Of a DNA stretch of 64,000 nucleotides, positions 1-56,720 are shown one piece after another (the stretch's first letter is position 1; each line of letters starts with the position of its first letter). Origin of the DNA: Pelotomaculum thermopropionicum SI (GTDB lineage Bacteria > Bacillota > Desulfotomaculia > Desulfotomaculales > Pelotomaculaceae); the NCBI GenBank assembly GCA_000010565.1, contig AP009389.1:2542001-2606000 (forward strand), read 5' to 3'. The position numbers and the translations under genes are program-made. Below the pieces are notes generated by a model, which worked only from the letters and a program-made list of their open reading frames with translations, did not search any database and was not told where the DNA came from.

Positions 1-451
1 AACCGTTTACCTGAACGTCTACAGCATAACTCAGAGATGCATAACCAAGTAAAGCAGCAATTCTCGGCCCTACCTGCCGTGAGTAAAAGTCGCTTGAACC
101 TTCACCGCATATAACAAGGTCTATGCCACCAATTTTCTTAATCATAGCAGCCAGCAATCGTGCCGTTACTGAACTGTCTAAAGAATCCAGCCCGGGTGAA
201 TCCATATAAAATACTTTTTCTGGCCCGCGGGATAATACATCATTAACGGATGCTTTAACACCTTTTCCTACCGTTGCTGCATACAATTCGCATCCAACGG
301 TTTCTTTTAAACTTGCCCCCAACTCTATGGCATTACGGTCATATTCATTAATCTTACCCTTCGCTTTATCAAAGTTGAGGCTGAGATCTTGCTCATTGAC
401 AAATATATCTGCTTCATCCAAAACCCATTTGTAACAAACCAAAACTTTCAT
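1..451 (-). CDS. etfB: Electron transfer flavoprotein beta subunit, 3' end outside window
   Basis: Reading back from ATG at 451, with GGAGTG just upstream, gives an ETF-beta N-terminus: MKVLVCYKWV, then a conserved nucleotide-binding core with NEYDRNAIELG, an ATVGKG turn and CGEGSSD. ETF beta binds AMP and, with EtfA, passes electrons from acyl-CoA dehydrogenases to the membrane or to bifurcating partners. Fifty bases separate it from the upstream acyl-CoA dehydrogenase, so it is the third gene of that operon, and etfA is expected just outside the window. The C-terminal half is missing only because the window ends. Confidence 0.9.
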   Translation of the reverse strand, partial: MKVLVCYKWVLDEADIFVNEQDLSLNFDKAKGKINEYDRNAIELGASLKETVGCELYAATVGKGVKASVNDVLSRGPEKVFYMDSPGLDSLDSSVTARLLAAMIKKIGGIDLVICGEGSSDFYSRQVGPRIAALLGYASLSYAVDVQVNG

Positions 452-501: not shown

Positions 502-1602
502 TTAAGTAATCGACTTTCGAGCAATCTGAAGAATTATTGGCTTTTCAGAAGTGTCAAATAGGCTAATCCCTTTCATATCCCGGTAAAGTGCATCTATACC
601 AAGATCTTTGCTGTAACCGTAACCTCCATGAATCTGAACCGCATCAATGCAGGTCTGCTCACCCGCAGTCTGGGCAATGTACCGGGCCATTTCCCCTGCC
701 TGAACAAAATCTTCACCCTGATCCCTTAAACTGGCTGCTTTGTAAGTTAATAAACGCGCAGCTTCTGTATATGCTGCCATTTTACCAACCATTACCTGTA
801 ATGCCTCAAACTTAATAATCGGCCTACCAAACTGTACTCTCTCTTTAGCATAACTAATGCTCTTTTCTAAAGCAGTTTGGGATATGCCAACAGCAATGGC
901 AGCTAAAGCCACATTCTGTAAACCTAAAACTCCAGCAGCAATTGCCAATCCTTGCCCAGGTGTGCCAATAAGATTGGCTGCAGGAACCTTTACATTCTCC
1001 AAGGTAATATCGGTAACACAGACTCCCTCTAAACCCATCTTCGCATGAGCCGGTCCAACCGTTACCCCTCCTGCATCTCCCTCTACCACAAATGAGCTAT
1101 ATTCTTTCTCTCCAGTTTTGGCCACAACAATAAATAGACTCTGCGGCTGGGCATTAACTACATAGGTCTTCTTCCCATTCAGAATATAGTAACCTCCCTG
1201 CCTCTCTGCAGTAGTGTTTATTAGCAACCAGTCTGTATTTAAACTGCCCTCGCTAAAAGCAAAACCACCAATCTTTTCACCCCGGCAAAGTTTGGAAAGA
1301 TACTCTTCTTTTAACTCATCTGAACCCCATTGATAAATGGCATTCTCTGCTAAGCAACAGTGATTCGCATATACAACAGCAGCGGAAGCTGAAACTTTTG
1401 CTAGCTCTTCTACGGCTATAATAAAACTGGTAAAATCAGAACCTGCCCCACCATAGATCTCTGGAAAAAAAATGCCTAGAAAATCAATGTCTGCTAATCT
1501 TTTCACAACTGCATAACTATCTTCATTCTCTGCATTTTCTTCAGCAAATTCTCTAATGCTATTCTTAATTAGAAGCTGCTCTTCGGTAAATTGAAAGTCC
1601 AT
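502..1602 (-). CDS. Acyl-CoA dehydrogenase-like protein with altered catalytic region
   Basis: 366 residues with the full acyl-CoA dehydrogenase layout: alpha-helical N-domain (FTEEQLLIKNSIREFAEE), middle beta-domain (LNGKKTYVVNA) and C-terminal helical domain (ERVQFGRPI, IHGGYGYSKD). Two hallmarks are degraded. The usual TEP-x-AGSD flavin/substrate loop reads FSEGSLNTDW. The usual IYEGTSE segment, which carries the catalytic Glu in most family members, reads SLFDTSE. It may use a base elsewhere, as isovaleryl-CoA dehydrogenase does, or be a non-catalytic partner of the canonical paralogue encoded just upstream. GAGAGGG precedes the ATG. It sits in the operon ACD-ACD-etfB. Confidence 0.85.
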   Translation of the reverse strand: MDFQFTEEQLLIKNSIREFAEENAENEDSYAVVKRLADIDFLGIFFPEIYGGAGSDFTSFIIAVEELAKVSASAAVVYANHCCLAENAIYQWGSDELKEEYLSKLCRGEKIGGFAFSEGSLNTDWLLINTTAERQGGYYILNGKKTYVVNAQPQSLFIVVAKTGEKEYSSFVVEGDAGGVTVGPAHAKMGLEGVCVTDITLENVKVPAANLIGTPGQGLAIAAGVLGLQNVALAAIAVGISQTALEKSISYAKERVQFGRPIIKFEALQVMVGKMAAYTEAARLLTYKAASLRDQGEDFVQAGEMARYIAQTAGEQTCIDAVQIHGGYGYSKDLGIDALYRDMKGISLFDTSEKPIILQIARKSIT

Positions 1603-1640: not shown

Positions 1641-2777
1641 TTACCTGAGTACATTATTGGCAATAACAATCCGCTGTACCTGATTGGTACCTTCATAAAT
1701 CTGCATCACTTTTACGTCCCGATAGAGCTTCTCTACAGGCGAGTCTTTCATATAACCGTAAATGCCAAATATATCTACTGCCTCCGAGGCTACCCACATC
1801 GCAGTATCTGTACAGTAAGCTTTGGCTATAGCTGCTTCCTTGCTAAAATGCTGACCTGAATCCTTTAAATAACACACCTTGTAAACCATATTCCGACACG
1901 TTTCTACAGCCATACACATATCTGCAACTTTAAACTGAATATACTGGGATTTGGCCAGTAACTTCCCTCCTCTTTGCTGCCCATTGACGAAATCAACAAC
2001 AGCTTCCAACGCAGCTTGGCTTAAACCAACTGCCATCGCAGCCTGGTTAATCCGCCCAGAATCTAATGTCTGCATGGCCAACTTAAAACCTTCCCCTTCT
2101 TTGCCTATAAGATTTTCCTTGGGTACCCTTACATTCTTAAACATTAACTCCACTGTATTGGAAGCCCGAATACCCATCTTGTTCTCATGCTTACCCACAA
2201 AAATACCCTCACGCTCAGCTTCTACAATAAAAGCGCTCAACCCCTTAACCCCTTTTGAAGTATCTGTAGAAGCAATCACAGTATATATGCTCGCATAACC
2301 GCCTGTAGTAATAAAACACTTGGAACCGTTAATTACATACTCATTCCCGTCAAGCACCGCGGTCGTCTGCACCGACCCAGCATCAGAACCTGCCCCAGGT
2401 TCGGTTAAAGCAAAAGAAGCTAGCTTGCCATCTAAAAGATACTGACACCACTTACGCTTTTGCTCACTACTCCCACCAATTAAAACCGCATACGAAGATA
2501 AACTGTTCCCCCCTATGGTTGTAGCTATACCAGCACAACCTCGACCAAGTTCCTCCGATATAATAGCAGCAGATAAAGCATCTACCCCCAACCCACCATA
2601 CTCTTTAGGCACCACCGTACATAATAACCCAATCTTGGCTGCTTCCTTTATTACGGGTAAGGGAAATTCACCTGTCTCATCATAATACTTAGCTACTGGA
2701 ATTACATGCTCTTCTACAAAAGCCCTAACTTTCTTCTTTAATTCTTGTTGTTCAGATGTCAGTTCCATGCTTGCCAT
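1641..2777 (-). CDS. Acyl-CoA dehydrogenase (canonical)
   Basis: About 378 residues. It oxidises an acyl-CoA thioester to the 2,3-enoyl-CoA using FAD and hands electrons to ETF, whose gene follows. Visible hallmarks are ALTEPGAGSDAGS in the flavin loop, INGSKCFITTGG, and VMQIYEGTNQVQR with the catalytic Glu. The ATG at 2777 is preferred over the TTG at 2786 because AGGAAGG is then correctly spaced. First gene of an operon with a second dehydrogenase 38 bases downstream. A sigma-54 promoter lies about 95 bases upstream. The substrate cannot be read from the sequence. Confidence 0.92.
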   Translation of the reverse strand: MASMELTSEQQELKKKVRAFVEEHVIPVAKYYDETGEFPLPVIKEAAKIGLLCTVVPKEYGGLGVDALSAAIISEELGRGCAGIATTIGGNSLSSYAVLIGGSSEQKRKWCQYLLDGKLASFALTEPGAGSDAGSVQTTAVLDGNEYVINGSKCFITTGGYASIYTVIASTDTSKGVKGLSAFIVEAEREGIFVGKHENKMGIRASNTVELMFKNVRVPKENLIGKEGEGFKLAMQTLDSGRINQAAMAVGLSQAALEAVVDFVNGQQRGGKLLAKSQYIQFKVADMCMAVETCRNMVYKVCYLKDSGQHFSKEAAIAKAYCTDTAMWVASEAVDIFGIYGYMKDSPVEKLYRDVKVMQIYEGTNQVQRIVIANNVLR

Positions 2778-2870
2778 AAAACTCAACCTTCCTTCTTAAT
2801 TAGTCAACTTCTTGCTTACTTTATTGCTTTATTACTTTACTGCTTCATCACTTCAATTTTTTTAGTAGCG

Positions 2871-2886
2871 AGCAAAAACTATGCCA
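2871..2886 (-). promoter_or_regulatory. Sigma-54 (-24/-12) promoter for the dehydrogenase/etf operon
   Basis: On the minus strand the sequence is TGGCATAGTTTTTGCT: GG and GC separated by exactly ten bases, matching TGGCAC-N5-TTGCT nearly base for base. It lies 94 bases upstream of the acyl-CoA dehydrogenase start. A second site of the same type precedes the glycyl radical enzyme, and a sigma-54 activator gene is at 11263-12720. Confidence 0.7.
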
Positions 2887-3080: not shown

Positions 3081-4466
3081 TTATAACTTGGCAAGGTACT
3101 TCTTAATAATTTTCAAAGCCTTAAGCGGTTCGCTCTGAGCCAGTAATCCGATAGCAAAAAGAATATATTTTTCATCTAACATCATTTCTGGATTTATAGG
3201 TTTAAGCATATTGGGGGAATTTTTCTGGAATAATGCACCCTTTAGAACATAACGTGGATCGGGAGAAAAAGCTACCGGCCCTCCTGTGCCAATTACCAGC
3301 TTTAGTTGGGTCAGGTCCTTCCCCCTCTGCACCATAAAGTCACCATTATGGGTAGTAATTATGTCAATTTTACCTACATGTCGTTCCACCGCTGTCTTTA
3401 CCGCTAAATGAGATAAAATAAGATGAGACCTAATTTGTTTATCTCCCTCGGGAAACTTCCCTATCTGATGAAACAACCTAACGCTTTCCTCAAATTCCTC
3501 CAGGCTCTCAATTAATTCTGCACCTTCTGTACTGGCAATCTCAATCAAGGAATCCAGGTTGTGAAATAAACCAAGATCGCCCTCAACCGTCCGTTTGACA
3601 TAAGGCTGAGGCAAACCTATCATGCTAACTTCTTTTCTAGACGGCGCACCCTTGGCTACAGAATATACATCTGTAGTGGCACCGCCCACGTCTACTAAAA
3701 GCAGTTCACCCAAACCCGCACACCCTGCAACACCTTCCGCGATTAGTTTAGCTGCCTCCATAACAGCAGATGGAGTAGGCATAATAACATTGTTAATCAT
3801 GCTTCTAACCCGGGCAATCCCTTTGGCTTCCGTAATCCTGTTAATAAATAGTTCTCTAATTGCCCGGTTTGCTGAATCTACATTCAAAACCCCTATCTCT
3901 GACATTACGTTTTTTGTATAAACAATATTTTTGCTGGTCTTGATTAAGATTTCTTTAATATCGTCATAGGCAGATTTATTCCCGGCTACGATGATATTCT
4001 TAACGCCGCCTTTAATCTCTGAAAGCATTTTTGCATTATGGATGATTACTTTCTTATTTCCTCCATCTGTGCCGCCTGTCAGCAAAACAATATCTGGAGC
4101 AGTTTCTTCAATCTCTGCTACCTCAGATTTCGATAATTCATAGGAGTATGTTCCTACTATCTTCGCCCCGGCACCTAGAGCAGCCATGCGGGCTGCCTCT
4201 GTAGTATACTCTGGCACTAAGCCAACACAAACAACCCGTAACCCTCCTGCCGCACTGCTGCATGCTAAAGCTTGCTTCTTTTCTTTCTCCCCAAAATCAA
4301 CTTCTTCCGCTAGCCTTTTTAATGCTTCTTCCAGCCCAATGGTAATATCGCTTTCAACAGTAGAAGGCGCCTGAACTCTTGCAACAAGCTCCTCTTTATC
4401 TAAATCAAAGGCAACAACTTTTGTAAATGTACTGCCAAAATCCATGAAAATCCTGATATCACTCAT
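3081..4466 (-). CDS. MutL/GlmL-type mutase reactivase (actin-like ATPase)
   Basis: 461 residues, the usual length of the GlmL/MutL family encoded with glutamate mutase and related cobalamin-dependent mutases. The N-terminus IRIFMDFGSTFTKVVAFD is the phosphate-1 loop of the ASKHA fold. VLLTGGTDGG and LLLVDVGGATTDVYSV are further nucleotide-binding segments, and VIGTGGPVAF lies near the C-terminus. Family members are thought to act as chaperones that maintain radical mutases. The ATG at 4466 has GGAGGG eight bases upstream; the longer frame to 4571 has nothing. No mutase gene is in the window, so its partner must lie elsewhere, or it may serve the nearby radical enzyme; the latter is speculation. 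Confidence 0.85.
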   Translation of the reverse strand: MSDIRIFMDFGSTFTKVVAFDLDKEELVARVQAPSTVESDITIGLEEALKRLAEEVDFGEKEKKQALACSSAAGGLRVVCVGLVPEYTTEAARMAALGAGAKIVGTYSYELSKSEVAEIEETAPDIVLLTGGTDGGNKKVIIHNAKMLSEIKGGVKNIIVAGNKSAYDDIKEILIKTSKNIVYTKNVMSEIGVLNVDSANRAIRELFINRITEAKGIARVRSMINNVIMPTPSAVMEAAKLIAEGVAGCAGLGELLLVDVGGATTDVYSVAKGAPSRKEVSMIGLPQPYVKRTVEGDLGLFHNLDSLIEIASTEGAELIESLEEFEESVRLFHQIGKFPEGDKQIRSHLILSHLAVKTAVERHVGKIDIITTHNGDFMVQRGKDLTQLKLVIGTGGPVAFSPDPRYVLKGALFQKNSPNMLKPINPEMMLDEKYILFAIGLLAQSEPLKALKIIKKYLAKL

Positions 4467-4631
4467 TCTTAGGGCCCTCCGTGTTAGCTCAAACAGTGTA
4501 GTGAACATTTGAAGTATTCGCACAACCGTGACTGGTTTACTTATATTAAATAACCCAACTAATAAATCCAAACTTGCTAAAAATATGTACTAATCAACCA
4601 TATTCTTTTATTTCCTTGCCCAGGAATGCTA

Positions 4632-5030
4632 TTAATAAAAAACATTTAATATGTCACTGGCTACAATTACTAAAAGTATCTCGTTATAACCGCCAAAAGT
4701 CATAATATAACCTACTATAATTGAACCCAGCATTCCCAAAAGTCAGCCGCAGCCTGGAATCATCACATGCCTGTACCCCGGATATTATGTAGAAGTAATT
4801 CCGGCCAATAAGTCGAAACAGCACATATTGTATTCGTATTGACAGAACTGATAAATGAAACCAGCTACCACAATGGTGATAAAAACTTTCCATACTACCT
4901 TAAATATAGGAGTGATATCGGCCATCAGGGCCATAGTAATACAAGCCACTTTTCTGCCAAACCTGCTAAGCAGCCAAACCATGCTAAAGTAAGCCCGAAC
5001 ACCACCTAAGGCAAAAATAGCAATCATGCT
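4632..5030 (-). pseudogene. Decayed MFS-type transporter
   Basis: Two frames together read like the C-terminal part of a major facilitator transporter. The first carries ALGGVRAYFSMVWLLSRFGRK, whose SRFGRK resembles the MFS loop signature. The second, after a frameshift near 4770, carries GMLGSIIVGYIMTFGG and stops at 4632. There is no intact start, and there are frame changes and short intact pieces only. It lies between the radical enzyme and the reactivase and may once have imported the substrate of this pathway. Confidence 0.5.
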
Positions 5031-5094
5031 GGTAGGCTTAACTACCGAAAATCCTATAGATACCTCTCAGATTTTAACTATGATTAATATTTAG

Positions 5095-5144: not shown

Positions 5145-7652
5145 TTACAATTCATGCATTGTTCGTTGGACAATTTCTTCCTGCAGTTCTGGCGGCAGAT
5201 CTATAAAGTAGGCACTGTAACCACCAACCCTGACCAACAAGTTCCTATACCTTTCAGGATGCTTTTGCGCATCCAGCAACTCTTCCACACTGTGAATGTT
5301 AAACTGAATATGCCATCCACCCCGTTTGAAGAAAGTCTTTAATATATTAATCAACTTCTTCAGTTTTTCCGGAGTGTTTAGAGTTTGCTTGGAAAACTTC
5401 ATATTATGAGTAAAACCAACATACTCAAAAGCATAGTTGCCCTTTGTTGCAGAGTTAATTACGGCAGTAGGCCCATTAACGTCCATCCCAGGCATTGCCG
5501 ATGAAGCAGCGTCGTTTAAAGGTTTGTAAGCAAATCTGCCGTTAGGCAGCGCTCCAACTGAAGCGCCTTGAGTTATGTGCCCAGCGGCCGCCCCCTTAAA
5601 CAGTATCGGCTTTTCTCCCGTTATAGGATCCGGCCTGCTCTGCATGATTCTTTGAGTACCAAACATTAATTCACCAAATAAATTGTCCGGCAAGTCTTCA
5701 TCGTTCCCATATTTGGGAGCATTTAAGCACATCTGGCGAAGTTCTTCTTTCCCTTCCCAGTTATTCCTCATAGCATCCAGCAACTCAGCCATGGTGACTT
5801 GCTTGGTATCAAATACCAAGTGTTGAATAGCTGCTAAACTATCGGCAATATCTGTAATACCCCTGTCACCAATCCAGGAAGAACGTAGGCTTGGATAACG
5901 AGCGCCGCCCTCACGAGAACACAGACCAGCGGGAATACAATCTTCATAAAGCATTGCAGCTCTTAACCCACTCATGGGGCTTATCTCTTGCTCTACACAC
6001 CACCAAATAAAATAGTGCTTACGTAACCTCTCACAGAAATAATCTACTTGTTTATAGAATGCATCTATAAACTGTTGCAGGGATGTAAACTTGGTGACAT
6101 CACCAGTCTTCAAACCTAACTGTTTTCCAGTCCTTGGATCAAATCCATTATATAAAGTTATCTCAAAAATCTTCGCATGGTTAAGACTGAAAAACCCTCC
6201 CTGATGCTCACCACAGTCTAAGTGATAACCCAAACAACCGCTAGCATTCCAGTTTACTGCATCCTTCAACGGGACACCCCGAGCTAAATACCTTTGGGTT
6301 CCTAATTCATCATTAAGGAAAGCGGGATTACCACCACCAAAGTCACGGTTGCATTCCAAAGCATGAATCATAAAATCTTCGTCAATACCATCGTGATAAC
6401 GAATATAGATTGCAGGCTCAGACAACTTGGTCTGGCGCATTACCTCTAGTACTATCCAGGACACTTCATTAATCAAATCTTCACCTAATTCGTTCCGCCC
6501 ACCAAGAGTAACATTCGGCAACAAGGTTCCCGGAGCAGCCCGGTGCTCTCTTTTAATGGTAACCAGGTTCTCAGTCTCCCTGATCTTTAGCCACAAAGCC
6601 CCTAAAAGCTCTGCCGCATCCTGACGGGTAAGAGTACCTTCATCTATATCCTTTTTGTAATAGGGATAAAGAATTTGATCAATTCTGCCAACTCCAACTT
6701 CAGGTCGTTCAGTGCTTTCTTTCCAGGCGGCTAAGTGTAAGAAACGCAGAGACTGAACAGCTTCCCAAAAGTTCCTAGGACGATTGGCAGGCACGTTCTG
6801 ACAAACTTCGGCTATTTTTAACAGCTCTGCTTTCCTTACAGGATCAGTGCAACTTTCTGCTTGCTTTCTGGCAAGTTCAGCATGCCTTTCTGCAAATTTT
6901 ATAACCGCGTTACAGGAAATAATGATCGCCTTGAGCAGGTTGTACTTCCGGAAAGCATTGGAGGCTGCCCCTTGTACAAAAGCTCCTAACTTCTCCATCC
7001 TGTTCAGTTCGTCCTTAGCAAGAGCAATAATATAATTTAAACCATTATCAATGGCTGGCTTGGTAGGCATGCAGTTACCACCGCCAAAAGCTCCCCAGTT
7101 CTGGAACAACCCTCTGTCTCTATGATGCCTCACTGCACGACCTTCATAGATCATGCCATGGTCAAACATCAAATCAAAATGGTCATCGCCCAACTCCGCC
7201 CTGATAGCTTCGTTTACTGCATCATACTTAGGCATATGCTCTACCCAGTACTCAGCATCTTCTTTAAGCTTCCGTAAATCTTCTGGATCAATATTAACCG
7301 CGGAAATGTCGCTGGATTTGCGGTCAAACCTGCCAGATTCACACATGGCAAGTATTTCACGCGGCTTCATAGCCACCAATGTGCTGTTACCCCTAATGAA
7401 TTTCGTGTTTGAACCTACTATAAGTTCACCATCTCTGATGACTATAGGACACTCCAACATCTTCTTTTCAAATGCCTTAGCCCACCTAATATCCAAAGGC
7501 AAGCCCTCTGTCTCTTTCCAGGACTCTGTAAATAAAAGCGTGTCATCTACATAAACGGTCGGCTGCGCATCTTCCCATTCCTTTTTGAGCCTTTGCAGCC
7601 TGGGAGTCATAACATTTACTTTCTTAATTTCCTCGGCAATAATTTTATCCAC
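5145..7652 (-). CDS. Glycyl radical enzyme of unassigned substrate class
   Basis: 835 residues, the size of pyruvate formate-lyase relatives. The C-terminus has the radical motif RVGGY (residues 808-812, Gly811 the likely radical site). The active-site Cys is in NASGCLGYH (Cys473). The residue two after Cys is Gly, not the Glu seen in diol dehydratases, choline lyase and 4-hydroxyphenylacetate decarboxylase, so it is not simply one of those. Length and neighbours (acyl-CoA dehydrogenases, ETF, mutase reactivase) would suit a fumarate-adding (X-succinate synthase) role or a new class. GTG start with GGAGG eight bases upstream. The required radical-SAM activase is not adjacent. A sigma-54 promoter lies about 550 bases upstream. 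Confidence 0.88.
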   Translation of the reverse strand: MDKIIAEEIKKVNVMTPRLQRLKKEWEDAQPTVYVDDTLLFTESWKETEGLPLDIRWAKAFEKKMLECPIVIRDGELIVGSNTKFIRGNSTLVAMKPREILAMCESGRFDRKSSDISAVNIDPEDLRKLKEDAEYWVEHMPKYDAVNEAIRAELGDDHFDLMFDHGMIYEGRAVRHHRDRGLFQNWGAFGGGNCMPTKPAIDNGLNYIIALAKDELNRMEKLGAFVQGAASNAFRKYNLLKAIIISCNAVIKFAERHAELARKQAESCTDPVRKAELLKIAEVCQNVPANRPRNFWEAVQSLRFLHLAAWKESTERPEVGVGRIDQILYPYYKKDIDEGTLTRQDAAELLGALWLKIRETENLVTIKREHRAAPGTLLPNVTLGGRNELGEDLINEVSWIVLEVMRQTKLSEPAIYIRYHDGIDEDFMIHALECNRDFGGGNPAFLNDELGTQRYLARGVPLKDAVNWNASGCLGYHLDCGEHQGGFFSLNHAKIFEITLYNGFDPRTGKQLGLKTGDVTKFTSLQQFIDAFYKQVDYFCERLRKHYFIWWCVEQEISPMSGLRAAMLYEDCIPAGLCSREGGARYPSLRSSWIGDRGITDIADSLAAIQHLVFDTKQVTMAELLDAMRNNWEGKEELRQMCLNAPKYGNDEDLPDNLFGELMFGTQRIMQSRPDPITGEKPILFKGAAAGHITQGASVGALPNGRFAYKPLNDAASSAMPGMDVNGPTAVINSATKGNYAFEYVGFTHNMKFSKQTLNTPEKLKKLINILKTFFKRGGWHIQFNIHSVEELLDAQKHPERYRNLLVRVGGYSAYFIDLPPELQEEIVQRTMHEL

Positions 7653-8206: not shown

Positions 8207-8222
8207 TGCAAACTTAATGCCA
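8207..8222 (-). promoter_or_regulatory. Sigma-54 (-24/-12) promoter upstream of the radical enzyme
   Basis: On the minus strand the sequence is TGGCATTAAGTTTGCA: GG-N10-GC with the TGGCA and TTGCA cores. It has the same TGGCAT start as the site at 2871-2886, which makes chance less likely. It faces the glycyl radical enzyme, with nothing coding in between. Confidence 0.6.
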
Positions 8223-8670: not shown

Positions 8671-9981
8671 ATGTACAATCCCCTTTCCCTAAAACTGGCC
8701 ATGGTCACACCCGAAACCCTGATTGTAGGTGTAGATGTGGCAAAGCGCATCCACTACGCACAGATGATCAATTTCCGAGGGGAGGGACTGCACAAGCCGT
8801 TCCCATTCCAGAATACCACATCCGGCATTGGCAATCTAGTCCGTCAAATAAAAACGATCCAGATGAAGTACGGCCTTTCCGATGTCCTGGTGGCCATGGA
8901 ACCCACCGGCCACTACTGGCTCCCCCTAGCCTGTACCTTGATTGCGCAGGGGATTACGGTAGTTATGGTCAACCCGCACCATGTAAAAAAGGCCAAGGAA
9001 CTGGACGACAATTCCCCCACCAAGCGGGACGATAAGGATGCCGGAGTAATTGCCCGCTTAGCCAGAGATGGACGGTTTCACCTCCCATATATTCCGACCG
9101 GGGTGACGGCGGATATTCGCAACCTGGTCAATTTCCGGGAACGGCTGAACAAAGAGCTGCAGCAGACAAAGGCGGAAATAACCACCATTTTAGACCGCTA
9201 CTTCCCGGAATTTCTGGACGTTTTTAAATCAGTGGAAGGCAAGGCAGCCATGGCTGCCCTGGAAAACTTTCCTTTTCCCGCCGATCTGCTTGAACGGACA
9301 GTAGAGGATGTGGCTTCTGTTCTGAGCGAAGCTACTCACAAGCGGGTTGGCGGCAGGCATGCCGAATTGCTTCATGAAAGCGCCAGGAATTCGGTGGGCA
9401 TAAAGGATGGAGCAGAAGGTGCCCGGATCGACCTCCAATACCAGCTGCGCAGGGTTAAACAGATCCTTGATGAATGCGAACTGGTTGAAGCCCGGCTGGC
9501 AGAACTGCTCAAAGAAGTCCCTTATGCCGGGTACCTGCTCACCATCCCGGGAACGAGCATACTTCAGGTAGCCGCCGTAGTTTCCGAGGTGGGTGACCTG
9601 AGCAACTACCGCAGTGCCAGGCAGTTGATCAAGCTGGCCGGCCTGAACCTGGTGGAAAACAGTTCTGGTAGCCACAAAGGGCGGAGCCGTATTAGCAAGC
9701 GGGGCAGGTCAAAACTACGCTGCACCCTCTTCCGGGTAGCGCTGATACTGGTAGCCAGAACACAGGAGTTTTCCCTGCTTCACCATTACTACACCACCAG
9801 GCCCAACAACCCGTTGAAAGGCAAGCAGTCACTGGTGGCAATCTGCTGTAAACTGTTGCGCATCATCTTTGCTCTGAGCCAAAAGAAAATGGCCTACGAT
9901 AAAAATATGGTTATTTCTCAGGACCATCCAGCCTTTATGTATATGAAATCAGCAGTGAAATCCAAAAAAGCAGCAGCATAA
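8671..9981 (+). CDS. IS110-family DEDD transposase
   Basis: 436 residues. The N-terminal RuvC-like DEDD domain shows VGVDVAKR (first Asp), AMEPTGHYW (Glu) and KRDDKDAGVIARLA (last Asp pair). A coiled segment follows, then the C-terminal Transposase_20 domain with TIPGTSILQVAAVVSEVGD, AGLNLVENSSG and SKRGRSKLRCTLFR, which includes the conserved serine region. These enzymes recombine DNA guided by a structured RNA encoded in the element's own non-coding end. GGAGGG lies nine bases before the ATG. The frame is intact and probably active. Confidence 0.93.
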   Translation: MYNPLSLKLAMVTPETLIVGVDVAKRIHYAQMINFRGEGLHKPFPFQNTTSGIGNLVRQIKTIQMKYGLSDVLVAMEPTGHYWLPLACTLIAQGITVVMVNPHHVKKAKELDDNSPTKRDDKDAGVIARLARDGRFHLPYIPTGVTADIRNLVNFRERLNKELQQTKAEITTILDRYFPEFLDVFKSVEGKAAMAALENFPFPADLLERTVEDVASVLSEATHKRVGGRHAELLHESARNSVGIKDGAEGARIDLQYQLRRVKQILDECELVEARLAELLKEVPYAGYLLTIPGTSILQVAAVVSEVGDLSNYRSARQLIKLAGLNLVENSSGSHKGRSRISKRGRSKLRCTLFRVALILVARTQEFSLLHHYYTTRPNNPLKGKQSLVAICCKLLRIIFALSQKKMAYDKNMVISQDHPAFMYMKSAVKSKKAAA

Positions 9982-11262: not shown

Positions 11263-12720
11263 ATGGTTACTAAATATAGAAAAGAAATCACAACATCCTC
11301 AAATTATTCCATATATGAAAAAAATATTCTTAATAACACAACTATGAATCGAATTGTTAAAGAAAACACAAACTCCATTTCCATTCTTGATGCATATGGA
11401 AATGTTCTATTAGTTTTTATAGGAGTTAAAGTAGGCAATTTAGTAGGTAGAAATGTAAAAGAAATAGGTAAATATGGAATGTATGAAGTATCTATGAGTG
11501 AAAAGGCCATAAAAGCACATTCTACGGTAATAGGAGTAGTGAATTCAAGGTTCGGTACTAGTCAAGTAGTTTCCAGTACACCGATAAAAGATGAAAATGG
11601 TAATATAATAATGGTTATTAACACCGCGCTTGACAAGCAATTATATGATAACTTGAAAATGACTTTAAAAGATGGTAAAGCAACTAATGAAACTTTCAAA
11701 AAAGTGATAGATTATTTAAGCGATGCAAATATTCCTTATGAAACACCAGTAGCCGAGAGTCCACAAATGCGAGAAATCATTAAAAATATTGACACTATAG
11801 CAAAAACTCATAGTACCATCCTTATCACAGGTGAATCAGGTACTGGAAAAGAAGTAATAGCAAGATATATTCATAAGCATAGCTTGCAAGCTGAAGGCCC
11901 CTTTATCCCGATCAATTGCGCTTCAATTCCTCATGAATTACTAGAATCAGAATTTTTTGGCTATGTCGGGGGAGCTTTCACAGGAGCAAACCCCCAAGGA
12001 AAACCTGGGTTATTTGAAATTGCTAATAATGGTACGCTGTTCCTGGATGAAATTGCGGAATTGCCGTTAACTATGCAGCCCAAGCTACTTCGTGTATTAG
12101 AAAGCGGCGAAATTAAAAGAGTGGGCGGAACCGATATTATTCGTACCAACGTGCGCTTAATTGCGGCAACTAATAAAGACCTAAAAACAATGGTGCGCCA
12201 AAATTTGTTTCGCAACGACTTATACTATCGTTTAAATGTTCTGCCTATCAATATACCGCCTTTAAGGGAAAGGCCTGAAGATATCGTGGCACTGTCAAAG
12301 AGATTTTTAGAATATATAAATAAAAAGTATAATCTTAAGAAAAGATTTACTGAACAAGCTATTAATGCTTTTCTTAATTATAGCTGGCCTGGAAATGTCC
12401 GTGAATTGCGAAATGTTGTGGAAAGGCTAGCCATTACATCACCAGATGATAATATAGGTAATATAAATATTCATTTATTATTAGATGGAAATTCCCTGGA
12501 AGAAAGTAATATAACCACTGGAACATATTTACCCCACGAAAATAAAATATATCAGGGAACACTAAAAAGCTTTTTAAAAAAGGTTGAAGCGGAATATATA
12601 AAGCAAGTGCTGGATATTTGTAACGGCAAAGTTGGAGAAGCAGCAAAGCTTTTAGGAATTCATCGCACCATGCTATACCGGAAAATAAAGAACAATACCA
12701 AAGCTATTGATAGTCAATAG
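11263..12720 (+). CDS. Sigma-54-dependent transcriptional activator (PAS-AAA+-Fis)
   Basis: 485 residues. The N-terminal sensory part is PAS-like (LDAYGNVLLVFIG; DENGNIIMVINTA). The central AAA+ domain has Walker A GESGTGKE, the sigma-54-contacting loop GAFTGA and Walker B TLFLDEIAEL, with an arginine-finger segment RLNVLPINIPPLRERPEDI. The C-terminal Fis-type helix-turn-helix is GEAAKLLGIHRTMLYRKIK. It remodels sigma-54 polymerase at -24/-12 promoters. AAGGAG precedes the ATG. Two good sigma-54 promoters lie at 2871 and 8207, so it is the natural regulator of the dehydrogenase and radical-enzyme genes. There is no receiver domain, so a small ligand is the likely signal. Confidence 0.9.
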   Translation: MVTKYRKEITTSSNYSIYEKNILNNTTMNRIVKENTNSISILDAYGNVLLVFIGVKVGNLVGRNVKEIGKYGMYEVSMSEKAIKAHSTVIGVVNSRFGTSQVVSSTPIKDENGNIIMVINTALDKQLYDNLKMTLKDGKATNETFKKVIDYLSDANIPYETPVAESPQMREIIKNIDTIAKTHSTILITGESGTGKEVIARYIHKHSLQAEGPFIPINCASIPHELLESEFFGYVGGAFTGANPQGKPGLFEIANNGTLFLDEIAELPLTMQPKLLRVLESGEIKRVGGTDIIRTNVRLIAATNKDLKTMVRQNLFRNDLYYRLNVLPINIPPLRERPEDIVALSKRFLEYINKKYNLKKRFTEQAINAFLNYSWPGNVRELRNVVERLAITSPDDNIGNINIHLLLDGNSLEESNITTGTYLPHENKIYQGTLKSFLKKVEAEYIKQVLDICNGKVGEAAKLLGIHRTMLYRKIKNNTKAIDSQ

Positions 12721-14580: not shown

Positions 14581-15978
14581 ATGAACTCTATTTTACCAGA
14601 ACAATATCAAATTGAAAAACAGTTTTACTCTCGTGTGGATAATTTTTTATCTAGGCACGAAATTGGTAAAATATTACGCCGCTCCAATTTTCAAAAGGAA
14701 AAAGGATTTAGCTGCCTTGAACTTTTCAAGTTCATTTTTCTGCTTGTCTTTAAAGGCAAGAACCTTTATCGCACATTGCAATCTGAAGCTGAACCCGGAA
14801 GGCCAGAGAAAGACACGATTTATCGCTTTTTGAATTCGTTCCGGTACAATTGGCGAAAATTTTTGCTCATCCTGAGTTCATCTGTAATCAATGAAACCAT
14901 TGAACCTTTGACCTCCCGCAACTGGAAAAATGTTCTTGTTCTTGACGATTCCCTCTACAGCCGCAACAGAAGCAAGGCTGTTGAATTGCTGGCCAGGGTA
15001 AAAGACCATGTTGAAAACAAGTATGTCCGTGGATTTAGGATGCTCACCCTGGGCTGGTCGGACGGCAATACTTTTCTGCCGGTTGCTTTCTCCTTGCTCA
15101 GCTCAGAAAATGAACGCAACCGGCTTTGCGGAATTGACCCACGGATCGATAAGCGTACCACTGGCTATAAAAGAAGGGTGGAAAGCATCAAAAAGTCTAC
15201 CGAAGTAATGTTTGATCTCTTGCGTCAAGCCCGGGAATATGGTGTACAGACAAGGTATCTTCTTTTCGATAGCTGGTTTGCCTTCCCGTCTATTATCTGC
15301 AGGGTTCGTGAACAGCATCTCCTCCATGTGATATGCATGCTTAAATCAATGAAAAGAGTTCTGTATACCTATAAAGGGGAGAAGGTGACCCTTGATACCC
15401 TTTACAAAGAACTTCTCAAAAAGCCTGGTAAAGCCAAGATCCTGGCAAGTGCTCTTGTCCAAATCGGCATTGATTCAGAGGGTAATCCGGTACCGGCACG
15501 GATTGTATTCATCCGGGACCGGAACCGGTCTAAAAAATGGCTGGCATTGCTTTCAACTGATCTAGAGCTGACCGATGAAGAAATCATTCGTATTTACGGA
15601 AAACGCTGGAGTATCGAGGTGTTCTTTAAAACCACCAAATCCTTTTTGAACCTGGCCAGGGAATTCCAGGGAAGAACATATGATTCTATGGTGGCCCATA
15701 CCACGATTGTCTTCTGCCGTTACATCATGCTCGCTCTAGAAAACCGTGAAAGCAAGGACCCGAGGACTCTCGGTGATCTATTTTATGTTTGCTGTGACGA
15801 ACTGCAGGACATAAGTTTTGCAGAGGCATTTCAATTGCTTTTGGCAATGCTCAAAAATACGTTGAGAAAATTTCTTGCAATAACAGATGGTGCTTTGCAG
15901 GAGCTAGTCAATAATTTTATTTCCTGTTTGCCTTCGTTCTTAAAGGGTCGCCTCAAACTTTCGCCCTGCGAAAGTTGA
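14581..15978 (+). CDS. IS4-family DDE transposase
   Basis: 465 residues. Catalytic segments: VLVLDDSLYSR (first Asp), RYLLFDSWFAFP (second Asp), and YGKRWSIEVFFKTTK, which is the Y-R-E-K signature of the IS4 family with the catalytic Glu. An insertion-type beta region lies between the last two, as is usual for the family. Full length with no internal stops, so probably active. Best explanation for the dead copy at 10510-11083. Confidence 0.93.
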   Translation: MNSILPEQYQIEKQFYSRVDNFLSRHEIGKILRRSNFQKEKGFSCLELFKFIFLLVFKGKNLYRTLQSEAEPGRPEKDTIYRFLNSFRYNWRKFLLILSSSVINETIEPLTSRNWKNVLVLDDSLYSRNRSKAVELLARVKDHVENKYVRGFRMLTLGWSDGNTFLPVAFSLLSSENERNRLCGIDPRIDKRTTGYKRRVESIKKSTEVMFDLLRQAREYGVQTRYLLFDSWFAFPSIICRVREQHLLHVICMLKSMKRVLYTYKGEKVTLDTLYKELLKKPGKAKILASALVQIGIDSEGNPVPARIVFIRDRNRSKKWLALLSTDLELTDEEIIRIYGKRWSIEVFFKTTKSFLNLAREFQGRTYDSMVAHTTIVFCRYIMLALENRESKDPRTLGDLFYVCCDELQDISFAEAFQLLLAMLKNTLRKFLAITDGALQELVNNFISCLPSFLKGRLKLSPCES

Positions 15979-25437: not shown

Positions 25438-26925
25438 GGGAGTGTAAATTATTTTGTGTAAATGGGTATTCCCAGAAAAAATTGGTTAAGCTATAAATGG
25501 CTCTTACCTGCCAGGAGGGTAGGGCACTGCTGGAGAGCAACCCGAGCGCCTGGCAGGGTTCTGCCGAGGATAGCAGGGGTGGCCTAAAGGCTGCCCTGCT
25601 TATCATTTTCCTACTATCCTTGGGAAAAAAAAAGCGGTAAACTCATTATCCAACCATCAGTTCCGGTTCCAGCCTATCGCTGAAGTGGATGGCAAACTGT
25701 GAGATACAACTTTTCCATTCCTTAATAGGTACTGTCCACTTTTTGGATGCCTCAACAGTAGCCAGGTAGATAATCTTTTTTAAGGCGTCATCCGTCGGAT
25801 ACGCGGTTTTTGTCTTGGTTACCTTGCGTAGCTGCCGGTGGTATCCTTCGATGATATTGGTAGTGTAAATGAGTTTGCGAATCTCGTATGGGTACTTGAA
25901 GTAAGCCGTCAGTTCCAGCCAGTTTTTCTCCCAGGAGCGGATAATAACCGGGTGTTTTTTACCCCACTTCTCCTTGAACATTTTAAAGGCGAGTTCCGCT
26001 TCCTCCATGGTAAGGGCCTGGTATACTTTCTTGAGGTCGGCCATTAATTCCTTTTGTTCCTTCCAAGGCACGTATTTCAGGGAATTACGGATTTGATGTA
26101 TTATGCATAGCTGGATTTCTGTCCGGGGAAACACGGTATTGATAGCCTCGGAAAACCCGGAAAGCCCGTCTTTACAGGCAATCAGGATGTCCTGCACGCC
26201 TCTGTTTTTCAGGTCGTTGCACACTCCAAGCCAGAAGCTGGCACTTTCATTTTCCCCAATCCAGATGCCCAGTATGTCCTTCTGGCCGGCCATGTTGATG
26301 CCCAGTACGCTGTAGGCAGCCTTGTTTATAATACGGTTGTCCTTGCGCACTTTAAAGAAAATGGCATCCAGGTAAATGATAGGGTATACGCGCTCCAGGG
26401 GTCTTGACTGCCACTCGGCGATCATAGGCATTATTTTGTCCGTCACCTTGCTGACCATTACCGGGGATACGTCGATACCATAGATATCCCGCATATGATC
26501 CTCAATATCCCGGGTGGTCATACCCTTGGCGTACATGGCGATAATCTGGTCTTCCAGGTCATTTGAGGTTGTCTGGTACTTTTTGATAATCCTGGGTTCA
26601 AATTCTCCATTGCGATCACGGGGTATTTCTATTTCGGTTTTGCCCAGCTTGGTCTGGATGGTTTTCTTGCTGTAACCATTGCGGCTGTTACCTGTATTAT
26701 TACCCTCCGGGCTATGCTTTTTATACCCCAGGTGTTCATCCATCTCGGCCTCAAATATTTGCTGCAAAGTGTCTTTAAAGAGGTTCTTAAGCATGTTGTG
26801 TACATCTTCTACGGTTTCACATTCTCTGGCTAATTCTTTGATGGTTTTGTCCATAGTGTTTTGCATAAATGGTCAGCTCCTTTTATTGTTAGTTATAACC
26901 ATTTACACAAAACTTTTTACTTCTC
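25438..26925 (-). mobile_element. IS256-type insertion element, 1488 bp, intact
   Basis: Bounded by 26-28 base imperfect inverted repeats that share a 14-base core TTTTGTGTAAATGG (left near 25453, right near 26899), and by an 8-bp direct repeat AGTTTCCC on both sides. Size, single transposase and 8-bp duplication all fit the IS256 family. It inserted between brnTA and the Tn554-like end. The duplication is still perfect, so the insertion is recent. Confidence 0.9.
25646..26866 (-). CDS. IS256-family (Mutator-type) transposase
   Basis: 406 residues. Key blocks: RNGYSKKTIQTKLGKTEIEI and PRDRNGEFEPRIIKKYQ near the front, YPIIYLDAIFFKVR (first Asp), LIACKDGLSGFSEAI (second Asp), IQLCIIHQIRNSLKYV, and YTTNIIEGYHRQLRKVTK (Glu). 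AAGGAG ten bases before the ATG. Full length, with no stops. Confidence 0.95.
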   Translation of the reverse strand: MQNTMDKTIKELARECETVEDVHNMLKNLFKDTLQQIFEAEMDEHLGYKKHSPEGNNTGNSRNGYSKKTIQTKLGKTEIEIPRDRNGEFEPRIIKKYQTTSNDLEDQIIAMYAKGMTTRDIEDHMRDIYGIDVSPVMVSKVTDKIMPMIAEWQSRPLERVYPIIYLDAIFFKVRKDNRIINKAAYSVLGINMAGQKDILGIWIGENESASFWLGVCNDLKNRGVQDILIACKDGLSGFSEAINTVFPRTEIQLCIIHQIRNSLKYVPWKEQKELMADLKKVYQALTMEEAELAFKMFKEKWGKKHPVIIRSWEKNWLELTAYFKYPYEIRKLIYTTNIIEGYHRQLRKVTKTKTAYPTDDALKKIIYLATVEASKKWTVPIKEWKSCISQFAIHFSDRLEPELMVG

Positions 26926-52851: not shown

Positions 52852-53880
52852 TCAGGCAAAATTGCCCGGTTCCAAGACGTCAACCCTGCCCGCCACGACT
52901 GCTTTCCTGACGGCCTGCTCCACCAGCTTCCGGGCGTAGCGCCCGTTGCCGGCGGCCCCGATCCCCCTGCCTAAAGAGCGGAACCTCCAGTACAGCTCTT
53001 CCTCCACGCCGGGGGCCGCGGAAAAACCCTGCTTCCGGACTTCCATCATCGCTATTTCTACCAGTTCTTCAGGGGAGTAATCAGGGAATTCGCAGGTGAA
53101 GGCTACGCGGCTTTCCAGCCCTGGGTTCAGCTCAAACAGCTTCCGCATCTCGTTCGTGTACCCGGCCAGGATAACCACAAAACGGTCCCGGTAGTCTTCC
53201 ATAGCCTTGATCAGAACTGCCAGAGCCTCGCTTCCGAAGTCATACTGCGACCCCTTTCCCCCGGCCAGGGCGTATGCCTCGTCCACGAACAGCACCCCGC
53301 CCATCGCTTTTCCGACCATTTCCCAGGTTTTCGGGGCGGTTTGCCCCACATACTGGCCCACCAGGCCGGAGCGGTCGGTCTCCACCAAATGGCCGGACGG
53401 CAATGCCCCCATCGCGGCCAGCAGTTTTCCCACCAGCCGGGCTACGGTGGTTTTGCCCGTGCCGGGGTTGCCGGTGAACATCATGTGCAGGGACTGTTTC
53501 AAAGGCGGCAGTCCCTTTTGCCTGCGGATGACGTTAGCCCGGACCACTGCCTCCACCTCCCGCAGAAACTCCTTTACCGGGGCCAGGCCGGTCAAACCGT
53601 CGATTTCAGCCCAGACTTCCTGCAGTGCGTCCTGCCGCTGCCGCCAGTGCGCCTCGATTTTTTTCTGCTGCCTTTGGTGCTGCATGATGGCGTTATACAC
53701 AAAGCCTAACAACGCTATTAACAGAGCAATAAACGTCCTGAAAAACCCGAAGGAAGCAGGCATGATGATATAGACAGCCAGCGCAGCCGCAAGCGCGAGA
53801 GTCACCGGCCAGTGCTCGGCGGCCTTTTCCATGAGTTCGAAAACAAGGTCTATCCCGTCACTCTGTTGCTGTCGCTGCAT
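52852..53880 (-). CDS. CbbX/SpoVK-type AAA+ ATPase with N-terminal membrane helices
   Basis: 342 residues. Two hydrophobic helices near the front (PVTLALAAALAVYIIMPASF; FRTFIALLIALLGFVYNAI), then AAA+ core: MFTGNPGTGKTTVARL (Walker A), GGVLFVDEAYALAGG (Walker B) and GLESRVAFTCEFPDYSPEEL (arginine finger). CbbX/SpoVK enzymes remodel protein complexes. Related ATPases occur with type VII-like or conjugative secretion, and the gene lies next to pilin-like and coupling-protein genes. Confidence 0.88.
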   Translation of the reverse strand: MQRQQQSDGIDLVFELMEKAAEHWPVTLALAAALAVYIIMPASFGFFRTFIALLIALLGFVYNAIMQHQRQQKKIEAHWRQRQDALQEVWAEIDGLTGLAPVKEFLREVEAVVRANVIRRQKGLPPLKQSLHMMFTGNPGTGKTTVARLVGKLLAAMGALPSGHLVETDRSGLVGQYVGQTAPKTWEMVGKAMGGVLFVDEAYALAGGKGSQYDFGSEALAVLIKAMEDYRDRFVVILAGYTNEMRKLFELNPGLESRVAFTCEFPDYSPEELVEIAMMEVRKQGFSAAPGVEEELYWRFRSLGRGIGAAGNGRYARKLVEQAVRKAVVAGRVDVLEPGNFA

Positions 53881-53883
53881 TTT

Positions 53884-54138
53884 TTACCCCTCTTTCCTGG
53901 GGAAATACCGCTCTTTCAGGGCCTTTGCCTTTTCCGGGTGCCGCTTTTCATACCGCACCCAGAGGCAAACCAGCGTGACGATGCCGCTTATAACCAAAGC
54001 TACGGGGTATGAAACATAAAAAAATTCGGTCAGTATCGCGCCGGTTAGCACTCCTGCGCCGAACGGCCACCCCTTGGTGGCAAGCCACGCATAGAATTTA
54101 ACAAACGCCGTAAATACCAGGTTCATTAATCCAAACAT
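53884..54138 (-). CDS. Small membrane protein
   Basis: 84 residues, two hydrophobic helices (WPFGAGVLTGAILTEFF and VALVISGIVTLVCLWV) and a basic tail. Three bases upstream of the AAA+ gene. Unknown family; part of the transfer-like gene cluster. Confidence 0.6.
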   Translation of the reverse strand: MFGLMNLVFTAFVKFYAWLATKGWPFGAGVLTGAILTEFFYVSYPVALVISGIVTLVCLWVRYEKRHPEKAKALKERYFPRKEG

Positions 54139-54196
54139 TTTTTCTCACCTCTCTAAAATTTTTATTTTTGAGGGGGCAGTCCCCGCCCTCTCTCAA

Positions 54197-54550
54197 TCAC
54201 GACGCCGCCTTTACCATCATCCCGATAATCCAGCCGGCTATCAATATAGCTCCGCCAAGCGCAATGCCGCCGCCAATGATGTAAGGTATACTGCCTATGA
54301 CTTTGCCGCGGTCGTCAGGCTTGCCGGCGCTGGCGATTAGCTTAAACGCTACTATGACAACCGACACAAAGATTACAGCCGCTCCCAGCGGCATAGTGAT
54401 GTCCCTCACAACTTCTACGACCTTCTGGCCGACTTCGTTCGCCGTTTTCGTGCTTATCCCAGCGGTCTCGGCCCAGGCCGCGGCCTGCCCGGCCAGGAAG
54501 GCCGCCAGCGCAAAAACAGCCGCCGCGATTTTCCTGGATTTTTTAAACAT
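54197..54550 (-). CDS. VirB2/TrbC-like pilin candidate (1)
   Basis: 117 residues: signal peptide (IAAAVFALAAFLAGQAAAWA), short mature N-terminus, then two long hydrophobic helices (PLGAAVIFVSVVIVAFKLIA; YIIGGGIALGGAILIAGWII) with a short polar GKPDDRGK loop. This is the architecture of VirB2/TrbC-type conjugative pilins. No VirB4 or VirB6 is visible in the window, so the assembly context is incomplete. Confidence 0.65.
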   Translation of the reverse strand: MFKKSRKIAAAVFALAAFLAGQAAAWAETAGISTKTANEVGQKVVEVVRDITMPLGAAVIFVSVVIVAFKLIASAGKPDDRGKVIGSIPYIIGGGIALGGAILIAGWIIGMMVKAAS

Positions 54551-54748
54551 ATTGCCTTTCCCCTTTTCTTTGTTTTTTCTGGCCCACCTTTCAGCCTTAC
54601 AGCCGCAAGGGCTAAAGGGCGTTTTTAAGGCTTTTTCGGGCCAGCCGGGAAGCCGGTTTCCCCGACGGAATCACCGATTGGCCCAAAAACCCCTGAAAAT
54701 CGCCTTCAAGCCTTTGCCGCCGTAAGGCTTGCGGGTGGGCCAAACACA
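54551..54748 (-). other. Long inverted-repeat region between pilin and coupling-protein genes
   Basis: GGCCCACC...GCAAGGGCTAAAGGGCG on one side and CGCCTTCAAGCC...GCGGGTGGGCC on the other are complementary in blocks over about 190 bases, with an inner CCGGGAAGCCGG / CCGGTTTCCC patch. No gene. Probably a folded RNA spacer that insulates or protects the messages of the two neighbours. Confidence 0.5.
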
Positions 54749-56716: not shown

Positions 56717-56720
56717 AAAC

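Follow-up and report, generated by a model that had tools for sequence, protein, structure and literature searches.

A glycyl radical enzyme gene in Pelotomaculum thermopropionicum

The window analyzed here is a 64,000-nucleotide stretch of the Pelotomaculum thermopropionicum SI chromosome (contig AP009389.1, positions 2,542,001 to 2,606,000 of the forward strand), and it contains, on the minus strand, a complete open reading frame (ORF) of 835 residues for a glycyl radical enzyme (GRE), an enzyme sensitive to oxygen, in which both catalytic loops are present (Table 1). A GGAGG-type ribosome site, recognized by eye, is located 8 nt upstream of the GTG start. The protein has the features of the superfamily, including the RVxGY glycine near the C-terminus, the thiyl cysteine of the Cys loop, a PFL-like domain and the barrel fold, and in a PF02901 search it was the sole GRE of the 3,025,375-base genome (579 bits). 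Its cysteine lies in a GCLG motif, and the enzyme is referred to below as the GCLG GRE.

A scan of genome contigs yielded 76 loci, 45 with a GRE that is 54–76% identical to the query and 31 with distant GREs (27–38%); the family alignment (n = 44) comprises the window GRE and 43 of its relatives, the short fragments L062 and L077 being left out. In eliminase GREs, the glutamate of a Cys-x-Glu motif is the general base. The original prediction noted that this glutamate is missing two residues after Cys473 (GCLGYH), and the absence proves to be a hallmark of the family: the residue at +2 is Gly in 41 of the 44 sequences, Ala in three and Glu in none. Among 36 outgroup GREs, the same position is Glu (26), Arg (6) or Ser (4). 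The Ser rows (L067, L068, L080, and L071) all have the motif CMSP; L067 matches the solved TutD at 1017 bits, and CMSP is also the motif of TutD and MasD in the alignment of L067 with solved structures. Other positions of the family loop are also conserved, namely Tyr at +3 (43/44), His477 at +4 (41/44) and Glu482 (42/44).

A quick maximum-likelihood tree was built from 41 rows. The 18 drawn from the 44 family sequences are split off together by a single branch (SH-aLRT 100; stem length, 1.07 changes per column) and lie outside the sampled succinate synthases and Cys-x-Glu enzymes; four CMSP rows and six CMRW rows are each set apart by a branch of their own. Long branches are present (L054 joins the family stem) and the deep branch order is unsure, although the family as such is set apart by one branch. 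The characterized classes are represented in this tree by locus relatives rather than by characterized enzymes, and only L067 was compared with solved structures. Twelve NCBIfam families were matched, all below cut-off, the best being TIGR01774 (493 bits against 678).

None of the characterized classes tested accommodates the enzyme. The eliminase/dehydratase class (glycerol, propanediol and hydroxyproline dehydratases, CutC, IslA, and HpsG) was rejected on the Gly at +2 and on scores below the equivalog cut-offs (sulfopropanediol dehydratase, 475/1000 and 384/1000; HypD, 474/1100; CutC, 391/1050; PRK09983, 332/1109), and the arylacetate decarboxylase class on the same two grounds (indoleacetate decarboxylase, 407/1100; hydroxyphenylacetate decarboxylase, 310/1150). 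Pyruvate formate-lyase, whose active site is Cys-Cys, was rejected because the GRE has a single Cys and reaches only 84 of 994 bits (TIGR01255). The X-succinate synthase class was rejected because the CMSP motif and the fumarate-binding Arg are lacking and the protein does not group with BssA/MasD-like rows. The best match among PDB sequences scores 380 bits, and the best five alignments, with identities of at most ∼30%, contain no close match to a characterized enzyme with the same motif. The prediction that the motif sets this GRE apart from the eliminases and decarboxylases is thus borne out, and on these sequence comparisons the GRE almost certainly represents a separate class of its own.

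The pocket was judged from alignments rather than from atomic coordinates. The position aligned with Asp447 of glycerol dehydratase, which we take to be a diol-binding residue, is occupied in most members by Met, Val, Leu, or Gln; Trp593 is kept in 43 of the 44; and the position of the succinate-synthase Arg508 falls in a gap. Given the missing +2 Glu, the missing fumarate Arg and the lost diol-contact position, we infer that the enzyme belongs neither to the standard eliminases nor to the standard X-succinate synthases. A structure model built from 37 sequences (mean pLDDT 90.4) matched glycerol, propanediol, and hydroxyproline dehydratases, CutC, and also BssA, with 5i2a as the top match (Z 42.6; ∼780 residues aligned, 27–32% identity).

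Members of the class were found, mostly in metagenome bins, in Bacillota, Actinomycetota, Chloroflexota, Bacteroidota, Acidobacteriota, Myxococcota, and Bathyarchaeota. Single Clostridia genomes show large GRE expansions, with 14, 13, 9, and 8 matches to one GRE fragment in G025, G026, G016, and G020, the genomes behind loci L032, L033, L022, and L026, respectively; one of these is Sporobacter termitidis and one comes from sheep duodenum. A Dehalococcoidia metagenome-assembled genome carries four consecutive GRE genes whose C-M-R-W motif marks a different Glu-less class (L053, 7398–17300), and in one from Deltaproteobacteria a second GRE (GCVEPQ), followed by a second activase, lies beside the GCLG GRE and the mutase described below (L019, 14636–17869).

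A predicted cognate activase in the same gene cluster

The GRE was originally described as having no radical S-adenosylmethionine (SAM) activase gene within reach, with the suggestion that one be sought elsewhere in the genome. No activase was found within the window. A search of the whole genome with an activase model returned one strong match (2530569–2531465, minus strand, 287.6 bits; next best, 28.2 bits), which corresponds to a 314-residue ORF scoring 378 bits against TIGR02494 (cut-off 174). Encoded in the same orientation as the GRE, 15.6 kb further downstream, this gene belongs to the far end of the GRE's own cluster and lies outside the window, 10.5 kb from its left edge. An activase match (at least 43% identity) is present in 35 of the 45 relative loci, in 32 cases no more than 500 bp beyond the GRE and usually across a gap of ∼100 bp; it lies at 1.9 kb in L023, on the opposite strand in L077 and upstream in L009. 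The presence of this predicted cognate radical-SAM activase in the cluster rules out an orphan GRE.

Linkage to a B12-dependent mutase

Downstream of the activase gene are genes for GlmE and GlmS, components of an adenosylcobalamin (AdoCbl, or B12) mutase, and these are followed by MmgE/PrpD; a GlmL-type chaperone/reactivase is encoded within the window. The linked GlmE passes TIGR01503 (401 bits, cut-off 390), and GlmS and GlmL also exceed their NCBIfam cut-offs. The mutase, as the more telling feature of the locus, was missed by the original prediction, since GlmE and GlmS lie outside the window. A GlmE, GlmS, or GlmL gene occurs in 23 of the 45 relative loci, and the gene order GRE-activase-GlmE-GlmS is found in relatives from several phyla.

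A whole-genome search for GlmE covered the 39 genomes behind 43 of the loci (L062 and L077 left out), and in 35 of them it found a GlmE at least 55% identical to that of the window strain, as a whole gene in 33 and in pieces in two (G011 and G039). The control was a set of 398 genomes from the same phylum: four have the GRE (E ≤ 1e-150) and three a GlmE of at least 55% identity, all three among those four and none among the 394 that lack the GRE; ordinary GlmE (≤41% identity, E ≤ 1e-60) is present in 75 further genomes without the GRE. The co-occurrence has a Fisher p of 3.8e-7 (3.8e-5 without the query genome). In G433, the fourth control genome with the GRE, the gene sits on a contig of 3 kb, and the search detected no GlmE. 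Across 33 genomes, GRE and GlmE also correlate in their identity to the window-strain proteins (Spearman 0.81; the GRE values of G030, G031, and G033 are from partial sequences). In all likelihood, the GRE and the mutase act in the same pathway.

Substrate site of the mutase

In glutamate mutase, Arg66, Arg100, and Arg149 are presumably the substrate-binding residues and Glu171 the residue that binds the amino group, and we assume roles for Tyr177 and Tyr181 as well. In an alignment to the solved glutamate mutase chain, the equivalents of the three arginines are kept in all 35 sequences of the linked GlmE clade, and the equivalent of Glu171 is Pro in all 35. In addition, Trp replaces Tyr177 in nearly all rows, and the GGGISYNVPY segment has become mostly hydrophobic residues of the SFFGW type. 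Because the arginines are kept while Glu171 is lost and the segment is hydrophobic, the substrate is probably a dicarboxylate without an amino group, and probably one with a hydrophobic group, as far as the assumed residue roles allow. Retention of the arginines is not automatic, since a third set of GlmE paralogs in some of the same genomes (28–37% identity, eight matches) has lost one or more of them. Glutamate fermentation was rejected as the role of GlmE/GlmS, given the loss of the Glu171 equivalent and the separate grouping of the linked GlmE. The names offered by family models, formate acetyltransferase/glycerol dehydratase for the GRE and methylaspartate mutase for its partner, are probably wrong as to substrate.

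The arginine-deficient paralogs have contexts of their own. In L114 (G038:C10, 4019–10527), such a GlmE (31% identity, two of the three substrate arginines lost) is accompanied by GlmS, GlmL, a major facilitator superfamily (MFS) transporter, a radical-SAM protein resembling an activase, and a different GRE of which the contig edge leaves only the first 219 residues, which constitutes a second kind of cluster with a GRE and a B12 mutase. In L110, L111, L112, L113, and L115, arginine-deficient paralogs adjoin MmgE/PrpD and GlmL genes, which suggests that the mutase and PrpD are a recurrent pair.

Organization and apparent partial decay of the cluster

Reading from the GRE, the cluster of the window strain consists of the MFS remnant, GlmL, two acyl-CoA dehydrogenases, EtfB, EtfA, FixC, FixX, a split CoA-transferase, a nitroreductase-family protein, an MFS transporter, and the activase (Table 1). 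The CoA-transferase, nitroreductase, FixX, and PrpD scored below equivalog cut-offs in the family scans, and no alcohol or aldehyde dehydrogenase is among the genes named in this cluster.

Table 1. Features of the GRE locus; positions are those of the window unless given as chromosome positions.
Feature	Position	Strand	Remarks
EtfB-like gene start	1..451	−	chromosome 2541669-2542451; by eye
Acyl-CoA dehydrogenase 2	502..1602	−	best NF042972, 275 bits, below cut-off 640
Acyl-CoA dehydrogenase 1	1641..2786	−	best NF042972, 420 bits, below cut-off 640
Possible −24/−12 promoter (second)	2872-2886		upstream of acyl-CoA dehydrogenase 1
GlmL-type chaperone/reactivase of AdoCbl mutase	3081..4571	−	NF040745, 554 bits, cut-off 475
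MFS transporter remnant (aromatic-acid/H+ symporter type)	4638..5063	−	no full-length open frame
GRE, GCLG class	5145..7652	−	835 aa, GTG start; chromosome 2547145-2549652
Gly811 codon, predicted glycyl radical site	5220..5222	−	RVGGYSAYF; invariant alignment column
Cys473 codon, predicted thiyl radical site	6234..6236	−	SGCLGYHL...E482-H; Cys invariant in family alignment
Possible −24/−12 promoter	8208..8222	−	one mismatch; upstream of GRE; pattern search
Transposase-like gene	8671-9981		between GRE and sigma-54-dependent activator; by eye
Sigma-54-dependent activator, possible cluster regulator	11263..12720	+	NF041552 (PrdR), 411 bits, below cut-off 795
EtfA, FixC, FixX, split CoA-transferase, nitroreductase, MFS, activase	left of window		family scans; EtfA by eye
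Activase	chromosome 2530560-2531504	−	
GlmE	chromosome 2528921-2530390		left of window; over cut-off
GlmS	chromosome 2528392-2528817		left of window; over cut-off
MmgE/PrpD	chromosome 2526950-2528338		left of window; family scan

The nearest relative, L007 (76% identity), has the order GRE, activase, GlmE, GlmS, PrpD, MFS, GlmL, CoA-transferase, and nitroreductase; by comparison, the GRE and the activase-GlmE-GlmS-PrpD block are therefore separated in the window strain. The two CoA-transferase pieces match residues 6–352 and 345–531 of the 532-residue homolog in L007 and lie ∼3.5 kb apart, split by a ∼3-kb insertion (chromosome 2534681–2537870) with plus-strand transposase-like and ATPase-like ORFs, assigned by eye. 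The MFS remnant matches residues 304–445 of the 460 encoded at L007:17011–18393 (51% identity, E 3e-32); that homolog scores 207 bits against TIGR00895, below cut-off. With its CoA-transferase split and a transporter reduced to a remnant, the pathway looks partly decayed in this strain, although full-length open frames are retained for the GRE, GlmL, GlmE, GlmS, the activase, and PrpD.

Transposase-like ORFs, again recognized by eye, also occur at 14581–15978 and 25646–26866, and mobile elements have probably rearranged the region. Genes of a conjugative or integrative element were assigned by eye at 52852–56758, including an AAA ATPase (52852–53880) and a coupling-protein-like ATPase (54749–56758). 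Sigma-54 activators related to that of the window are near the GRE in L007, L008, L010, and L040; the −24/−12 pattern itself is not enriched in the window (49 found against 64 expected), so that the two candidate sites are only suggestive.

Across the relatives, the core is the GRE, the activase, and GlmE/S/L, and the tailoring genes are variable. Recurrent neighbors include iron-containing alcohol dehydrogenases, aldehyde dehydrogenases, aldehyde:ferredoxin oxidoreductase, flavoproteins of the old-yellow-enzyme type, short-chain dehydrogenases/reductases, and tripartite ATP-independent periplasmic (TRAP) and MFS transporters. A HyuA/HyuB pair is present in a subset of loci, with an Acetone_carb_G subunit added in L009. 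MmgE/PrpD (at least 52% identity in 22 of the 39 GRE genomes, in one as two pieces) and HyuA (at least 65% in 8 of the 39) were kept out of the core because they are less constant than GlmE, and the window genome has no close acetone-carboxylase-like HyuA (best identity, 25%). Short Cys-bearing ORFs are among those listed near the GRE in relatives; in X-succinate synthases, genes for small accessory subunits adjoin that of the large subunit.

A proposed two-radical pathway and its alternatives

We propose that the GCLG GRE produces a dicarboxylate lacking an amino group, or contributes to its formation, and that the B12 mutase would rearrange this acid before CoA activation and oxidation; we put the chances of this whole chain, with no substrate named, at about even. 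In GREs, an activase generates a radical on a Gly, from which it passes to a Cys and on to the substrate. Here, the activase would make the radical on Gly811, the radical would move to Cys473, and the thiyl would take a hydrogen from the substrate. The usual base-assisted 1,2-elimination is unlikely in an enzyme that lacks the +2 Glu, and we favor radical C-C coupling or rearrangement because the mutase partner should handle a non-amino dicarboxylate; our estimate for such non-eliminase C-C chemistry by the GRE falls just short of even. The reaction would yield such a dicarboxylate, directly or after further steps, and GlmE/GlmS, kept active by GlmL, could rearrange it by a shift of the 2-substituted glutarate/3-methylsuccinate type. 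MmgE/PrpD might then epimerize or dehydrate the rearranged acid, and the CoA-transferase, acyl-CoA dehydrogenases, electron transfer flavoprotein (ETF), and FixCX would activate and oxidize it. In a more specific version, which we offer only tentatively, the GRE would join a hydrophobic C-H donor to an unsaturated acid, and the relative of glutamate mutase would rearrange the resulting free non-amino dicarboxylic acid. This version would constitute a pathway with two radical steps, glycyl and then adenosylcobalamin, parallel to and independent of fumarate addition followed by a mutase of the methylmalonyl-CoA type.

Several observations weigh against the proposed chain. The top fold matches of the GRE are dehydratases, with benzylsuccinate synthase (4pkf, Z 41.8) tied within 1 Z unit, and the role of the missing base could be taken by His477 and Glu482, which closely follow the Cys. 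Because the position of Arg508 falls in a gap, that residue offers no support for fumarate as co-substrate. In 22 of the 45 loci, the available stretch contains no Glm gene, and four of the 39 GRE genomes (G014, G027, G028, and G029), including divergent Dehalococcoidales and Bathyarchaeota members, are without the GlmE clade. No activase match was found at ten of the 45 loci (L015, L018, L020, L022, L030, L031, L034, L035, L038, and L042), although in L020 and L038 fewer than 300 bp of sequence follow the GRE. The co-occurrence and Spearman statistics ignore relatedness. Finally, the contexts differ among members (alcohol and aldehyde dehydrogenases, aldehyde:ferredoxin oxidoreductase, old-yellow-enzyme-type, acetone-carboxylase-like), so that one substrate for all of them is not assured.

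The main rival is that the GRE is an eliminase or dehydratase after all, in which His477 or Glu482 (conserved in 93% and 95% of the 44 sequences) stands in for the Glu, and whose aldehyde or ketone product goes to linked alcohol and aldehyde dehydrogenases. The top Foldseek and VIA-align matches are indeed dehydratases and C-N/C-S lyases (28–32% identity), and genes for iron-containing alcohol dehydrogenase and aldehyde dehydrogenase flank the GRE in several relatives (e.g., L025, L047, and L044). The +2 Glu is nevertheless absent from every family sequence, the presumed diol-binding Asp is replaced in most, the window-strain cluster has neither dehydrogenase among its named genes, and elimination alone leaves the link to a dicarboxylate mutase unexplained; we consider this rival a serious one, though less likely than not. 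A third lineage of fumarate-adding (X-succinate) synthases appears improbable; such an enzyme would join a hydrocarbon-like substrate to fumarate to give a substituted succinate, and a mutase of free acids would take the place that a CoA-ester mutase has in alkane degradation. It would share the lack of a +2 Glu with BssA (TutD) and MasD (CMSP), and Trp593 stands, by eye, roughly at Trp613 of BssA; the mutase, CoA-transferase, acyl-CoA dehydrogenases, and ETF also resemble alkylsuccinate oxidation. However, the GCLG rows lie outside the CMSP clade, and the ∼100 bp between GRE and activase leaves no room there for small subunits, other places not being excluded. In both solved enzymes, moreover, fumarate is held by an arginine, Arg508 in benzylsuccinate synthase and Arg492 in (1-methylalkyl)succinate synthase (PMC4848970, PMC12358834), a position that is in a gap here.

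The two other explanations concern the strain and the linkage rather than the chemistry. The gene could be a relic in this strain, with GRE, activase, and mutase intact in a pathway that is dead. The CoA-transferase pieces with transposase-like ORFs between them and the MFS remnant favor such a reading, and no growth substrate of the organism that we are aware of is explained by the pathway. The six full-length frames argue against it, and a second CoA-transferase could stand in for the broken one; we regard a relic as a real possibility with less than even chances, and one that bears on the strain and not on the family. Alternatively, the link to the mutase could reflect the shared ecology of anaerobes that ferment several acids with B12 enzymes and GREs, as several relatives have many GREs and more than one GlmE paralog. 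Since the 75 further genomes with an ordinary GlmE lack the GRE, only the special clade tracks it, and since the gene order is shared by relatives from several phyla, this explanation seems very unlikely.

From the linkage in the cluster and the distribution over genomes, the GRE and the B12 mutase appear to act in series, and the mutase narrows the search for the substrate to dicarboxylic acids that carry no amino group. What is new is that the GCLG class is coupled with a B12 mutase, and this points to an anaerobic degradation pathway, so far undescribed, with two radical chemistries in a row. It is testable in strict anaerobes, including the cultured Sporobacter termitidis DSM 10068 (L026), in which the genes for the GRE, the activase, GlmE, GlmS, and GlmL are adjacent.

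Comparison with known systems

Among open-licence PMC papers, where absence is weak evidence, none was found on a GRE and a glutamate or methylaspartate mutase in one pathway. GREs and B12 enzymes are presented as substitutes for each other in a review (PMC8473912), the available part of which contains no pathway joining the two. As far as the accessible portions of two further studies extend, the limonene GRE is a BssA-like enzyme and not of the GCLG class (PMC12583861), and 18 GREs were described from 11 metagenome bins with the GCLG class not assigned (PMC11362221).

With the GREs of the PFL2/glycerol dehydratase type (TIGR01774; glycerol, propanediol, and hydroxyproline dehydratases, CutC, IslA, HpsG), the GCLG GRE has in common the fold, the length, the Cys and Gly loops, and a TIGR02494-type activase, at Z ∼39–43 and ∼30% identity. 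It differs in having no Cys-x-Glu, in the loss of the polar diol-binding position, in forming a clade separate from the sampled Cys-x-Glu rows, and in reaching 332–493 bits against family-model cut-offs of 678–1109. The HyuA/HyuB-like pair beside GlmE and PrpD in relatives, together with Acetone_carb_G in L009, recalls the acetone/acetophenone carboxylase-type enzymes, yet it is far below the acetophenone carboxylase cut-offs, and the window genome offers only the HyuA of 25% identity.

In alkane degradation, a skeleton mutase acts after the X-succinate synthase step. Like the X-succinate synthases (BssA/TutD and MasD), the GCLG GRE is without a Glu behind the Cys, carries a Trp around position 593, and has CoA and acyl-CoA dehydrogenase genes downstream; unlike them, it lacks CMSP and the fumarate Arg, is 26–28% identical, and falls outside their clade. 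The mutase of the alkane pathway is of the CoA type, whereas the one linked to the GCLG GRE belongs to the glutamate type, whose substrates are free acids. With glutamate (methylaspartate) mutase, GlmS/GlmE/GlmL, the linked mutase shares scores above the NCBIfam cut-offs and the equivalents of Arg66, Arg100, and Arg149, but its GlmE forms a group of its own (at least 55% identity within, at most 41% to ordinary GlmE), has Pro in place of Glu171, and is linked to a GRE.

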